Assembly: GCF_000003815.2 (NCBI RefSeq)
Contig: NC_049993.1
Coordinates: 12,761,189-12,825,188, forward strand
Source: Branchiostoma floridae
Lineage: Eukaryota > Chordata > Leptocardii > Amphioxiformes > Branchiostomatidae
Length of the DNA: 64,000 bases
Direction of reading: 5' to 3'
A program made the position numbers and the translations under genes. Of this stretch, positions 39,811 through 59,619 are shown piece by piece (position 1 is the stretch's first letter; each line of letters opens with the position of its first letter). Under the pieces are notes generated by a model that worked only from the letters and a program-made list of their open reading frames with translations, did no database searches and was not told the DNA's origin.

Positions 39811-42448
39811 ATGAGTGAAGAGAAAGTACGTATCGAGAAAATGGCGCACGAGCCCCGGAGCGACCGACTCTCCCCGGCGGTGGGATTTGCCGTGTGCAGC
39901 CTGGCAGTGACCGTGGCCGTCCTGCTCGTCACCTTCCTACACAGCGATGTTGTCTCTCTGCGCTCTGAAGTCGTCTCCCTGCGAGAGCGCCTTGCTGTGG
40001 TGGAGACGAAGATACAAGACGGGGTCTGGTCGGGACAAAGCTCGGTACTCAACACAGAGGTGGGTTTCATATGCCCGTGTTACATCAAAGGCACCAGGAA
40101 ATATCTTAGCATGTATAGAAATCATAATATAAACGTTTATATACGTCTACGACACATTAAGACTTTCGGCTACGACAAATCTGCTGCCAATCCCGTCCAA
40201 CGCAAATCTACACGAAATAAAACATAGCTATGTCATACAAAGGGCGAAAGGTTTTGACAGGCAGCATACAAGTTTTACAATGATTCCTTGATTCATGTTT
40301 ACTACATTTTTTTTTCTTTTTCAACAAGAAAGATAGTGCATTACGCATGACTAGTAAGTAAAATACTGTTTTCAAATACTTTTCACTAGTCAAAGACCCC
40401 CTCATATCGATTTTGTAATTAACAGCGCCCATGTATTTCCCAGATGACCGACCCGTTGAAGACGCCAGGCAGCGGTTCAGCATGGTTCGGGAAGGACAAA
40501 GACTCACCCAGGATGAGGGCAAAGAGGCAGACTGTCGACTGTGCAGGTGTAACGGTAAGAACCTTTAAAAAACACACAATTTTTTGCATAAATGTTATCG
40601 TATTCTGTACATCAGCAACAACAACATTATTGTTGATGACAGTATGGCTAATAATTAGAATCCACATTAAAACTTTCATCCATGTTTGTTCTTAGGGTCC
40701 GCCTGGCCCTAAAGGAGACCCGGGGGAGCCGGGACCGCAAGGGATGCCGGGACCACCAGGAGTTTGTGACTGCATTGCGAGTGGTAAATGAAATTTAGTA
40801 TACGGTTGTCTCAGCATTCGTAACCGAGAACACTCAACAGGTTTTCGGAGAAATAAACCTATCAACTTGTACTGGCAAGCTTATTAAGAAAATATCAGTA
40901 GATTTAGACTGGGGTATTGTTGATGTCACTTTGGAAGGTGTTGCAATGGATAGGTGGTAGGTTGTAAGGAATCATAATTTTTGGCAACGCCTTAGGCCCG
41001 GGGCTAGCCTAACAGTATAGTATGATGTCCGATTGGGATAAGGATTCGTCATTTTTTGTTTCAGTTTCAGAAATTTACAATCATTGAATCTCCTAAACAA
41101 GCTAGGTATCATTGTGCATCGCTGTCACAATCTAAGCATATGATTCTATAGCATATTTGTCCTATTTCTCTCTTCAGATGTCCACGGATGTAAAGGCCTT
41201 GACGTAGACCTGTTGGCCTACTACCCGTTCGACGACAGCTACGCTGACACTCAGGGCAACTTCGACTTGGCGCCGCAAGGAGGCGTTTCTCTACAGCCCG
41301 GTGGTAACGGTAACGGCTGCGCCCAGTTTGGCGGAGCGGGAAGACTGGTGGCGAACGGTTTCACCTCCCACGTGTGGGGCAGTTCGCTAACCGTTAGTGT
41401 GTGGTTCAAACGGACGGGTCAGTTCGGGAACTACCAGGGAATCATCAACACGGGATACCACGCTTCTGGGAGCTGGGAGATCCGCATGGGTCGGGTAAAT
41501 CAATGTTTTCTTTACGTTTGGTTCGATAGAAAGTTTGTAGGAACTTGTTTCTTGTCTTTGTTACATGACAAATGCTGCAAGGGCTTTCATACATGGTGTC
41601 GTCCTAGTATTTGATACACAAAACTTTAACGTAGTAGAGTAACAAGTTTTGCCAAAACGTTTGTCTATTTTTTTAAAGGAAAACGGTGGAACGATGATTG
41701 GATGCGGTGTCGTCACAAGTAACAGTCCTAAAACCTGGGACTACGTACACCTGTACGCCTCGACCAACACCTGGCACCATGCCGTCATGACGTACGACGG
41801 GACACTGACCAAGTTCTACCTGGACAACGTGGCGCAAACAGGAAACGACCAGTGAGTTACTCTATTGTTATTTTTGTCTGCTGCAGGCCCTGCATGACTA
41901 AGATGCACTAGAAACGGCACGCCTTAAATGCCTTTGAATGTTGTAGGTTGACAGGACGTGAGGGGGAAGATGGTGTAGTCAGAGACTGGCAGAATAGGAA
42001 GCTTGGCATAGCCCGGGTGTAAAGTTGGTCCCGCAGGATGGCAGAATGGTAATATTGGCTTGACCCAGATCCAAAGTCGGTCCCGCACGCAGGCTGGCAC
42101 GAAAATACATAAACAGAATTATTGAGAAATCCGCAATATGAAATTGAGGTAAAACTCCAAATACTATCTAACGGAGGTATGAAATCTTCGATTTCTCAGT
42201 CGTTTCAGTCAGATAAGAACCGTGTGTCATAGAAATAGTAGATTCAAAACTGTACAACATTTCTCCTACTTTGTAGGTGCTGCTCCGGCCCCATCATAGA
42301 CAAGGGAAACCCCCTAGTAATCGGACAGGCCGGAACCGGGAATAGTAATGAATATTTTTTCGGGTTTATCGACGAGGTTCGTCTGTACAGCCGAGCCCTG
42401 TGTGCGGAGGAGGTGGCGGCCCTGTACCAGGCAACCCGACCGGAGTGA
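39811..42448 (+). CDS. Lectin gene A: type II membrane collagen-LamG protein (6 exons, 369 aa)
   Basis: Exons are 39811-40059, 40444-40554, 40696-40783, 41178-41494, 41679-41851 and 42277-42448; GT-AG introns, phases consistent, CDS 1,110 nt. In order: a 21-residue cytoplasmic tail ([20 protein letters not shown]), one transmembrane helix (~22-43), a short heptad stalk, a furin-type site (RAKR|Q), about eight Gly-X-Y triplets (GPPGPKGDPGEPGPQGMPG), and a LamG_3/concanavalin-A-like domain (DLLAYYPFDDSYADTQGN to FIDEVRLYSRALCAEEVAAL). The orientation (N terminus inside) follows from the lack of a signal peptide. Compared with gene B, the second exon looks like a fusion of B exons 2 and 3, with the first collagen stretch lost. 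The role is probably carbohydrate recognition at the cell surface or after release; the ligand is unknown. Confidence 0.85.
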
Positions 42449-43120
42449 GGAAGCAGCACTGCGTAGTTTCTGTCTATGTACTTTCAAAATTGTTCTTTAC
42501 ATAGTCAGGCTCATTACCGAACGATGTTTACATAGAGGCATTTAGTATCGACCATGCTGCTTCTGTTTATCTCAGTTTGTAGTACTAAGATTAAGGAGAT
42601 CGCAGTGCTGGTAAACAATACAATAAGTTCTATAGTCATCTTGCTATTTCTTTCTCTGATGAAACACTCAATTATACTCATTGTCTGACGAATCGAAATA
42701 AAAGTAAGTAGAGACGGAAAAGTGGACTACAGAGTGTTCCATTAGCAGCATATATTGCAAAACAGGTGGGCATGTTTTGCCCCAACGTACACATTCTGAT
42801 AAATATGAAAAGCTGCACACTGTGGACATACAGCAATTCTAACATAATAAAACTAGCAGATAAACATGCAAGTTATATCTTAATTTGTGCAGGAGGATCC
42901 ATTTCCACTGGAAACGTATAAATCGCTGCACAAACTGGTAACATCTGCTTGGAGTTTAAATCTAATGGACTGATAATAATACTATACTGGTGACCAGTTT
43001 TCTTCTTATTCTTGGGGCTACTGGTGACATGGGGGTCGCTGAACCCAAAAACCATTCAAGACAATGAGTGCACTTAGGTGAGAAGATTTGATAAGTGGAC
43101 AACCTTTAGTGAGCGTGACG
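42449..43120. other. Intergenic between lectin genes A and B, start of the duplicated unit
   Basis: It contains AATAAA at 42697-42702, a candidate poly(A) signal for gene A. From about 42720 on, the sequence (GTGGACTACAGAGTGTTCCA, later AACATCTGCTTGGAGTTTAA) is closely repeated before genes C (about 46768) and D (about 50836). The duplicated unit thus includes roughly 540 bp of upstream DNA. Confidence 0.6.
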
Positions 43121-59300: not shown

Positions 59301-59619
59301 CTCCCTCAAACTGCCTGACCGTGGAAATGTGACCTAAGCCTTACACAGACTCATTGTTGTTTTAGAGGTTACCCCAGGGTTTGTACAGTTTCGTGTCTTT
59401 AACGCTGAACGTGCCCCTCTCGCTGTGTGCCCGGGAGTGAGATACAACGGTGGAGAATCAGATGCTCTCTGCATCGGAGGTGCGGCATACTGGCCCCAAG
59501 CAGCCCCCCAGCAGTGTGGAGACTTCTCGGCCAAGGCTTGGAATGGATACGGAACACATACCGGCTGGAGCAGCAGTCGGCTGGAACTGGAGTCTGCAGT
59601 TCTCTTCTTTTACCGTTAA
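56392..59619 (+). CDS. Lectin gene E: type II membrane collagen-intelectin with altered ligand site (8 exons, 506 aa)
   Basis: Exons are 56392-56700, 57097-57235, 57420-57538, 57802-57970, 58096-58350, 58643-58794, 58985-59108 and 59366-59619; GT-AG, phases consistent, CDS 1,521 nt. Layout is that of C and D. The stalk is intermediate (103-codon exon 1) and reads like a recombinant of the two D stalk units ([20 protein letters not shown]). The furin-type site is RIRSKR|Q and the collagen segment [19 protein letters not shown]. The intelectin head ends FFYR like the others. Ala456 and Gln467 replace the ligand His and Glu; Glu and Asp replace ITLN1 Asn260 and Glu262. Exon 7 ends CCAC|GTAAAT against CCAG or GCAG in C and D, changing the junction residue to Gln. 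Introns 2-3 are nearly identical to gene C. Confidence 0.87.

Follow-up and report, generated by a model that had tools for sequence, protein, structure and literature searches.

Five tandem amphioxus genes in which a predicted membrane, furin-site and collagen chassis carries either a LamG or an intelectin head

In a 64,000-nucleotide (nt) stretch of the Branchiostoma floridae genome (C15:12761189-12825188; "the window", to which all positions refer unless another locus is named), five genes, here called A to E, lie in tandem (Table 1). Their predicted products share one N-terminal chassis, consisting of a short tail, a transmembrane (TM) segment, a furin-type site and collagen repeats, which is followed by a LamG domain in A and B and by an intelectin domain in C-E. 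We consider it probable, if by no great measure, that the array encodes type II membrane precursors that would trimerise and be cut by furin, releasing oligomeric lectins or lectin-like proteins. A first-pass annotation had placed a five-gene array at 39811..59619, and its start and end agree with our five gene models, which were built by hand from splice consensus and reading frame and run in frame from ATG to stop with 0 internal stops. Donors are GT in 31 of the 32 introns and GC in the remaining one (intron 5 of gene C, window 49304-49305, where D and E have GT at the same place), and all 32 acceptors are AG.

The chassis starts with a tail of about 23 residues and a TM-like segment (residues 24-42), followed by a variable coiled-coil-like stalk that makes up the remainder of exon 1, the furin-type exon and the collagen. 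The TM-like segment is the single strongly hydrophobic stretch, with a mean hydropathy of 2.4-2.5, as compared to 0.7-1.14 for the best stretch past residue 60. By hydropathy and by-eye reading, it is this segment, and not a signal peptide, that is present at the start of the C-E models. The net charge of the tail is +2 in B-E and 0 in A, while that of the 15 residues after the TM segment is -1 to 0. The first exons had been described as nearly identical, which holds for the first 42 codons (126 nt; 94-98% identity in all 10 gene pairs) and does not hold for the whole exon, which varies from 83 to 131 codons with its variable stalk. The dibasic cleavage exon, also noted previously, was recovered in all five genes as an RxKR motif after the TM segment (RAKR in A and RSKR in B-E); C-E have an extra RIRR ahead of the TM segment, presumably on the cytoplasmic side. 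Collagen repeats are likewise present in all five, with at least 8 Gly-X-Y triplets per run, and are shorter than the earlier description might suggest: the runs number one or two and hold 8-11 triplets each, and gene A is without collagen exon 1, an apparent leftover of which (DCAGV) ends its furin exon. The collagen of the MACIT family of transmembrane collagens is far longer. In A, B and D, the three proteins run against Pfam, the collagen scored below the cut-off. "Coiled coil" refers here to heptad-like sequence recognized by eye, together with weak Pfam matches below the cut-off in gene D (Tropomyosin, 0.00089; DUF7310, 0.0027).

The A and B heads match Pfam Laminin_G_3 with E values of 1e-20 and 1.5e-19 (74.8 and 71.1 bits against a cut-off of 27.6), in agreement with the LamG/concanavalin-like domain reported for them. 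Against the PDB, the gene A head gave weak matches, the best being an S-layer protein (E 0.0051), with neuronal pentraxin-2 at 0.33; we describe the A/B head as a LamG domain of the ConA-like fold with a putative lectin role. The gene D head (residues 258-532; phmmer against the PDB) matched human ITLN1 with an E value of 1.1e-105, and ITLN1, Xenopus XEEL and the lamprey serum lectin all matched at 1e-95 to 1e-106. Identity to the D head is 95.6% in C and 93.1% in E, and the claim of a complete intelectin domain stands for all three. These heads are mutually 93-96% identical and share 56-57% identity with human ITLN1, they contain the structural-calcium consensus HENXXXGXCTXGD as given in PMC9682848, and the aromatic pair of the glycan site is W/W in 3/3. 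Fibrinogen_C scored 14.6 bits, below its cut-off of 22, in D, the sole intelectin-headed protein run. In C-E the exon order is exon 1, furin exon, collagen exon 1, coiled-coil-like exon and four more intelectin exons.

That one chassis serves two unrelated heads, as the first-pass annotation had proposed, is supported by where the two paths split: the two head types begin downstream of one shared donor (phase 0), that of the collagen exon. In blastn comparisons, B aligned to each of C, D and E over the upstream region with exon 1, over the furin exon and over collagen exon 1, where the match ran on for 7-13 nt; further downstream there was no blastn alignment at E values up to 1e-3. This is the pattern that would be expected of exon shuffling.

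Divergence along the array is uneven. When B is compared with C, D or E, the synonymous divergence (dS) is 0.06-0.14 over the first 42 codons; the furin exon has 0.38-0.43, and collagen exon 1 (31 hand-aligned codons) 0.46-0.62. Fisher tests of this contrast gave P values of 0.046, 0.016 and 0.001, which are not independent of one another. Exon-wise dS was used here in place of trees for comparing exon 1 with the heads. Intron 1 of B is 49-52% identical to those of C-E, near the level of unalignable sequence, whereas exon 1 is 95-98% identical over its first 126 nt. The C/E pair has 98-99% identity in introns 2 and 3 and 100% in exon 4 (nt), but 46% in intron 4; between C and D, it is intron 4 that is 96% identical over its aligned part (50 gap columns), with introns 2 and 3 at 72% and 69%. 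Such a mosaic is typical of gene conversion and suggests that conversion has acted here, an alternative for the sameness of exon 1 being strong constraint on its DNA.

The genome (513 Mb, 431 contigs) was searched with exon 1 of E, the furin exon, the first and third LamG exons and the last intelectin exon; the best candidates were scored, so that the match counts are lower bounds. Exon 1 gave at least 6 matches, in the five genes and none beyond the array, and the furin exon gave at least 4 (B-E), again none beyond the array, while the two LamG exons matched in A and B only, at the sensitivity of this search. The last intelectin exon, in contrast, gave at least 14 matches, namely the 3 array genes and 11 others (2 on C4, 8 on C14 and 1 on C11). 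Fibrinogen_C was dropped as a probe, as its matches (at least 173) represent a different family. Eight pieces of 9.5-10 kb cover all 11 non-array loci with about 3 to 9 kb of upstream sequence; in these pieces, the exon 1, furin and collagen exons had no match at E 0.01, and there was no Gly-X-Y run of at least 6 triplets with at least 4 prolines. Within the searched sequence, the collagen-TM form thus appears to be confined to the array. Of the 11 non-array intelectins, 8 have the counterparts of head exons 5-8 within a single open frame and 3 are partial; a retrocopy origin or intron loss is possible. Such one-frame heads occur in L019, L020, L021, L023, L025 and L026, whereas the array heads are split by introns.

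The nearest relative that we describe is an intelectin on C4 (L019 7154-8425). It shares with C-E a head that is 79-80% identical and a coiled-coil-like stretch before it, and differs in that the head is intronless, the protein start reads MVVLLLLCVVLPLTCG, which is signal-peptide-like by eye, and the calcium/glycan site is canonical (N N E H E W W). The chassis was not found in the 7 kb upstream of this gene. In an IQ-TREE analysis it groups with C-E (support 98/96), and C-E alone have support of 100/98. Among the other copies, L022 5959-7200 (C14) holds two intelectin copies in opposite orientation, with matches about 20 nt apart; in each of them the head is incomplete on its 5' side. L023 3113-4048 (C14) and L026 7667-8602 (C4) carry nearly identical heads on different chromosomes, which suggests a recent transposition or an assembly duplicate.

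To our minds, the most interesting point, more than the chassis, is that the near-identical C-E heads differ at the sugar site. The eight site positions, in ITLN1 numbering, are N243, E244, N260, E262, H263, E274, W288 and Y297 (Y or W at 297); they were taken from PMC9682848 on the lamprey lectin LSSL and mapped by counting along the PDB chain, which has Asn where that paper prints Asp279. Positions 263, 274, 288 and 297 are also backed by PMC12800186 and PMC8324875. At 243, 260, 262, 263 and 274, gene C has N D E V G, gene D has T H E H E and gene E has A E D A Q, while human ITLN1 and the C4 intelectin keep N N E H E. With W at 297 counted as kept, C, D and E retain 5/8, 6/8 and 3/8 positions, respectively; as the sets are incomplete, we class the three as intelectin-domain proteins rather than canonical intelectins. 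The site differs from gene to gene, and the ligands are thus probably different.

This variation is concentrated. The C-E heads vary at 22 of 274 positions overall, yet at 5 of the 8 site positions (naive hypergeometric P 1e-4). With a shorter, seven-position list, which lacks 244 and was used for the exon 8 and near-site counts, 5/7 site positions vary within exon 8 as compared to 16/87 others (P 0.002), and 12 of the 37 positions within 3 residues of the seven vary as compared to 10 of 237 elsewhere. The ratio of non-synonymous to synonymous divergence (w) is 0.37-0.75 in near-site codons and 0.07-0.14 in the rest of the head (Fisher tests of this contrast on non-synonymous to synonymous counts, P 0.007, 0.050 and 0.008), the latter indicating purifying selection. 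Near-site dS is also higher (0.27-0.39 versus 0.11-0.15), which would be expected if this stretch had escaped conversion. Diversification of the site is plausible from these comparisons; as w is below 1, positive selection is not claimed. The C14 and C11 intelectin copies also vary at some site positions, and the array may thus be a marked case of a wider tendency.

In the mechanism that we propose, the short basic tail and the one TM helix would anchor the chain, and the coiled-coil stalk would start trimer formation. A proprotein convertase would then cut the furin-type site just ahead of the collagen, releasing the collagen rod together with the head, and the released chains would be held together by the Gly-X-Y helix, by nearby cysteines and, in C-E, by a second coiled coil. 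The intelectin head of C-E would bind microbial glycans via calcium, and the LamG head of A and B would act through a putative ligand of its own. As for its origin, an intelectin cassette and a LamG cassette probably came to lie behind one and the same phase-0 intron of a single chassis; the genes would then have been duplicated in tandem and patchily converted.

Several observations weigh against this proposal, most of all at the predicted chassis-head join, which is supported by the sequence features described below. In 5/5 genes, read-through of the last collagen donor runs into a stop after 8-108 nt, so that a separate chassis gene might, formally, end there without splicing. There is a documented precedent for such an artefact, as the lancelet Lectin_C/fn2 gene model proved to be a false chimera whose join was refuted by expressed sequence tags, and many novel lancelet domain combinations are suspected to be annotation errors, as discussed by Banyai and Patthy (PMC4967905). 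A TM-collagen gene might thus stand beside a separate lectin gene, the two-gene unit having been duplicated; the tandem copies offer no independent test of the join. The chassis-head introns of A and B (394 and 332 nt) even contain an AATAAA (at 40852 and 45065), and a signal exon could be spliced in from further upstream. We nevertheless regard a false join as quite improbable. In C-E the chassis and head are separated by a single intron of 263, 317 and 263 nt, with matching splice sites and phase and no AATAAA or ATTAAA, and none of the five open frames before the head has a signal-peptide-like start directly ahead of the first head exon: A and B have no Met, and C, D and E have a late Met with no hydrophobic stretch after it. 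The C4 relative has its own signal-peptide-like start ahead of the homologous coiled coil.

Other difficulties concern function. The collagen is short, and the tail of gene A has no net positive charge. C and E are without some of the ligands of human ITLN1, so that the usual sugar binding, or any, may be gone, and the site variation, with near-site w below 1, is accounted for by relaxed constraint about as well as by selection for diversity. C and E might be decaying lectins, with the site variation recording loss of function in copies otherwise homogenised by gene conversion: C is without the equivalents of H263 and E274, E is changed at 5/8 positions, and the two are near-identical in introns 2-3 and exon 4. 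This seems unlikely to us, given the intact reading frames and splice sites, the strong purifying selection elsewhere in the head, and the retention of the aromatic pair and the structural calcium motif in all three. Moreover, two lectins with changed sites work and have a new specificity: the equivalent of 274 is Q in human ITLN2, and W288A in mouse Itln2 goes with a preference for Galp over Galf (PMC12800186); H263A also occurs in mice (PMC8324875). It is similarly doubtful that the RxKR site is left uncut and that these are phagocytic or adhesive receptors retained on the cell, comparable to class A scavenger receptors fitted with a lectin head, even though the tail and TM segment are the best conserved part common to all five and those scavenger receptors are likewise type II membrane proteins with collagen (PMC7848082). 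RxKR has been kept in 5/5 genes while the exon around it diverged (67-70% amino acid identity between B and C-E), it sits where the furin sites of MACIT collagens sit (PMC7848082), and a motif scan of A-E revealed no YxxPhi or dileucine motif in the 23-residue tail. A signalling receptor was rejected for the latter reason. The membrane-anchored recognition system envisaged at first is thus probably half right: the anchor is predicted, but RxKR predicts a shed product, and the tail is bare of these motifs. The same bare tail and the fit to transmembrane-collagen anatomy lead us to favour a shed, trimeric, calcium-dependent lectin.

The array may be described as built like ectodysplasin or gliomedin and used like a ficolin, which is our best reading of the likenesses. 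Ectodysplasin A, the colmedins and the MACIT collagens XIII, XXIII and XXV share with it a tail, a TM segment and a furin-type site before the collagen, and have a coiled coil and a shed ectodomain, both of which the array may have as well (PMC7848082). Collagen-like type II membrane proteins are described there with a short N-terminal tail, a single TM segment, one or two collagenous domains and a different domain at the C terminus, and the gene models fit this plan. In the account given there, coiled coils start the trimers of transmembrane collagens, which fold from N to C, furin cuts collagens XIII, XXIII and XXV just before the first collagen domain, and the ectodomains of ectodysplasin A and the colmedins are secreted. 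The differences are that ectodysplasin A and the colmedins carry a TNF or olfactomedin head, where the array has intelectin or LamG, and that several interrupted collagen domains fill most of the MACIT ectodomain. The architecture had been called unusual, and this is so for the combination of known domains, not for the kind of chassis. With the intelectins (ITLN1, XEEL, LSSL), the whole C-E head is homologous, including the structural calcium motif and a W/W pair as in XEEL and the lamprey protein; C-E differ in having a predicted TM segment, furin-type site, collagen and coiled-coil-like stretch in place of a signal peptide, and in their changed calcium/glycan ligands. Intelectins are indeed described as secreted (mucosal) lectins (PMC12800186), as had been stated. 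Those of placozoans are reported without collagen repeats or coiled coils (PMC6321704), and mouse Itln genes have 8 exons (PMC3048546). In literature screened by title and abstract opening, no TM or collagen intelectin is described; the Yan 2013 comparison of intelectin genes and the human ITLN1 structure paper fall outside this scope.

As a working likeness, the array shares with ficolins and collectins a collagen rod and a lectin head, and its products would likely be oligomeric microbe binders. It differs in being made as a membrane precursor, in a head that is neither a FReD nor a C-type lectin domain, and in the absence of a MASP motif. The MASP-binding collagen motif PGKxGP occurs in 0/5 proteins, and a lectin-complement role was for this reason set aside as without support, a further point to be counted against a ficolin-like use. 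One paper nevertheless has lamprey LSSL acting with MASP-1 while its text makes no mention of collagen (PMC9682848), and an amphioxus ficolin without collagen is cited as doing the same (PMC11312191); a complement role may thus still exist. The discussion of that survey reports that collagen-bearing ficolins were lost in the amphioxus lineage, while its introduction lists amphioxus among the animals with one.

Table 1. Genes of the array and their principal exons, in window positions.
Feature	Position (strand)	Exons or counterparts	Content
Gene A	39811-42448 (+)	6 exons, 369 aa: 39811-40059, 40444-40554, 40696-40783, 41178-41494, 41679-41851, 42277-42448	Predicted TM, RAKR site, one collagen exon, Laminin_G_3 head; without collagen exon 1
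Gene B	43260-46373 (+)	7 exons, 431 aa: 43260-43514, 43914-44055, 44323-44453, 44665-44770, 45103-45419, 45597-45769, 46202-46373	Predicted TM, RSKR site, two collagen exons, Laminin_G_3 head (three LamG exons)
Gene C	47329-50580 (+)	8 exons, 496 aa: 47329-47607, 47995-48133, 48318-48436, 48700-48868, 49049-49303, 49600-49751, 49935-50058, 50327-50580	Predicted TM, RSKR site, collagen, coiled-coil-like exon, intelectin head with altered calcium/glycan site
Gene D	51386-55065 (+)	8 exons, 532 aa: 51386-51778, 52202-52340, 52510-52622, 52940-53108, 53239-53493, 53815-53966, 54353-54476, 54812-55065	Plan as in gene C; longest stalk of the array
Gene E	56392-59619 (+)	8 exons, 506 aa: 56392-56700, 57097-57235, 57420-57538, 57802-57970, 58096-58350, 58643-58794, 58985-59108, 59366-59619	Plan as in gene C
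Furin-site exon	B 43914-44055 (+)	A 40444-40554 (fused); C 47995-48133; D 52202-52340; E 57097-57235	RIRSKRQA in B
Collagen exon 1	B 44323-44453 (+)	C 48318-48436; D 52510-52622; E 57420-57538; apparent remnant in A	Last shared exon before the head-swap point; donor phase 0
Coiled-coil-like exon and start of intelectin head	C 48700-48868 (+)	D 52940-53108; E 57802-57970	
Exon 8	C 50327-50580 (+)	D 54812-55065; E 59366-59619	Calcium/glycan site; among the most divergent head exons

Some further features of the window were recorded. At 386 nt, intron 6 of gene D has about double the length of its counterparts in C and E; by eye, a 20-nt inverted repeat can be read in it (window 53981-54079), which may mark a small mobile element. 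A tandem repeat with a period of about 62 nt lies at 31148-31464. Downstream of the array, a gene modelled by eye covers 62057-62728, has a TM-like stretch at about 63160-63230 and continues in L027 (1155-2009); it also encodes an NHL repeat (Pfam 3e-13). Its N-terminal region contains four acidic-x-Y-S-T-[L/I/V]-S-G-x-Y repeats, which we take to resemble hemITAM motifs. This repeat region has at least 33 genome matches, on C6, C7, C8, C9, C12, C15, C19 and C158, which points to a family spread over the genome whose members may be type II signalling receptors.

If our reading of the array is correct, a collagen-bearing intelectin that can be released by furin would show that ficolin-like molecules can be arrived at independently. 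As A-E have a tail and TM segment that are nearly the same, mixed trimers are conceivable, and one may go further and picture a cassette-style locus, in which conversion and selection keep a shed chassis uniform, heads are swapped at the phase-0 intron, the calcium site of the intelectin heads is actively diversified and the chains mix in trimers that would unite different specificities on one collagen rod; this is a speculative extension with a rather small chance of being right. The C, D and E heads would in any case provide a natural series for learning how changes in the calcium site set lectin specificity.

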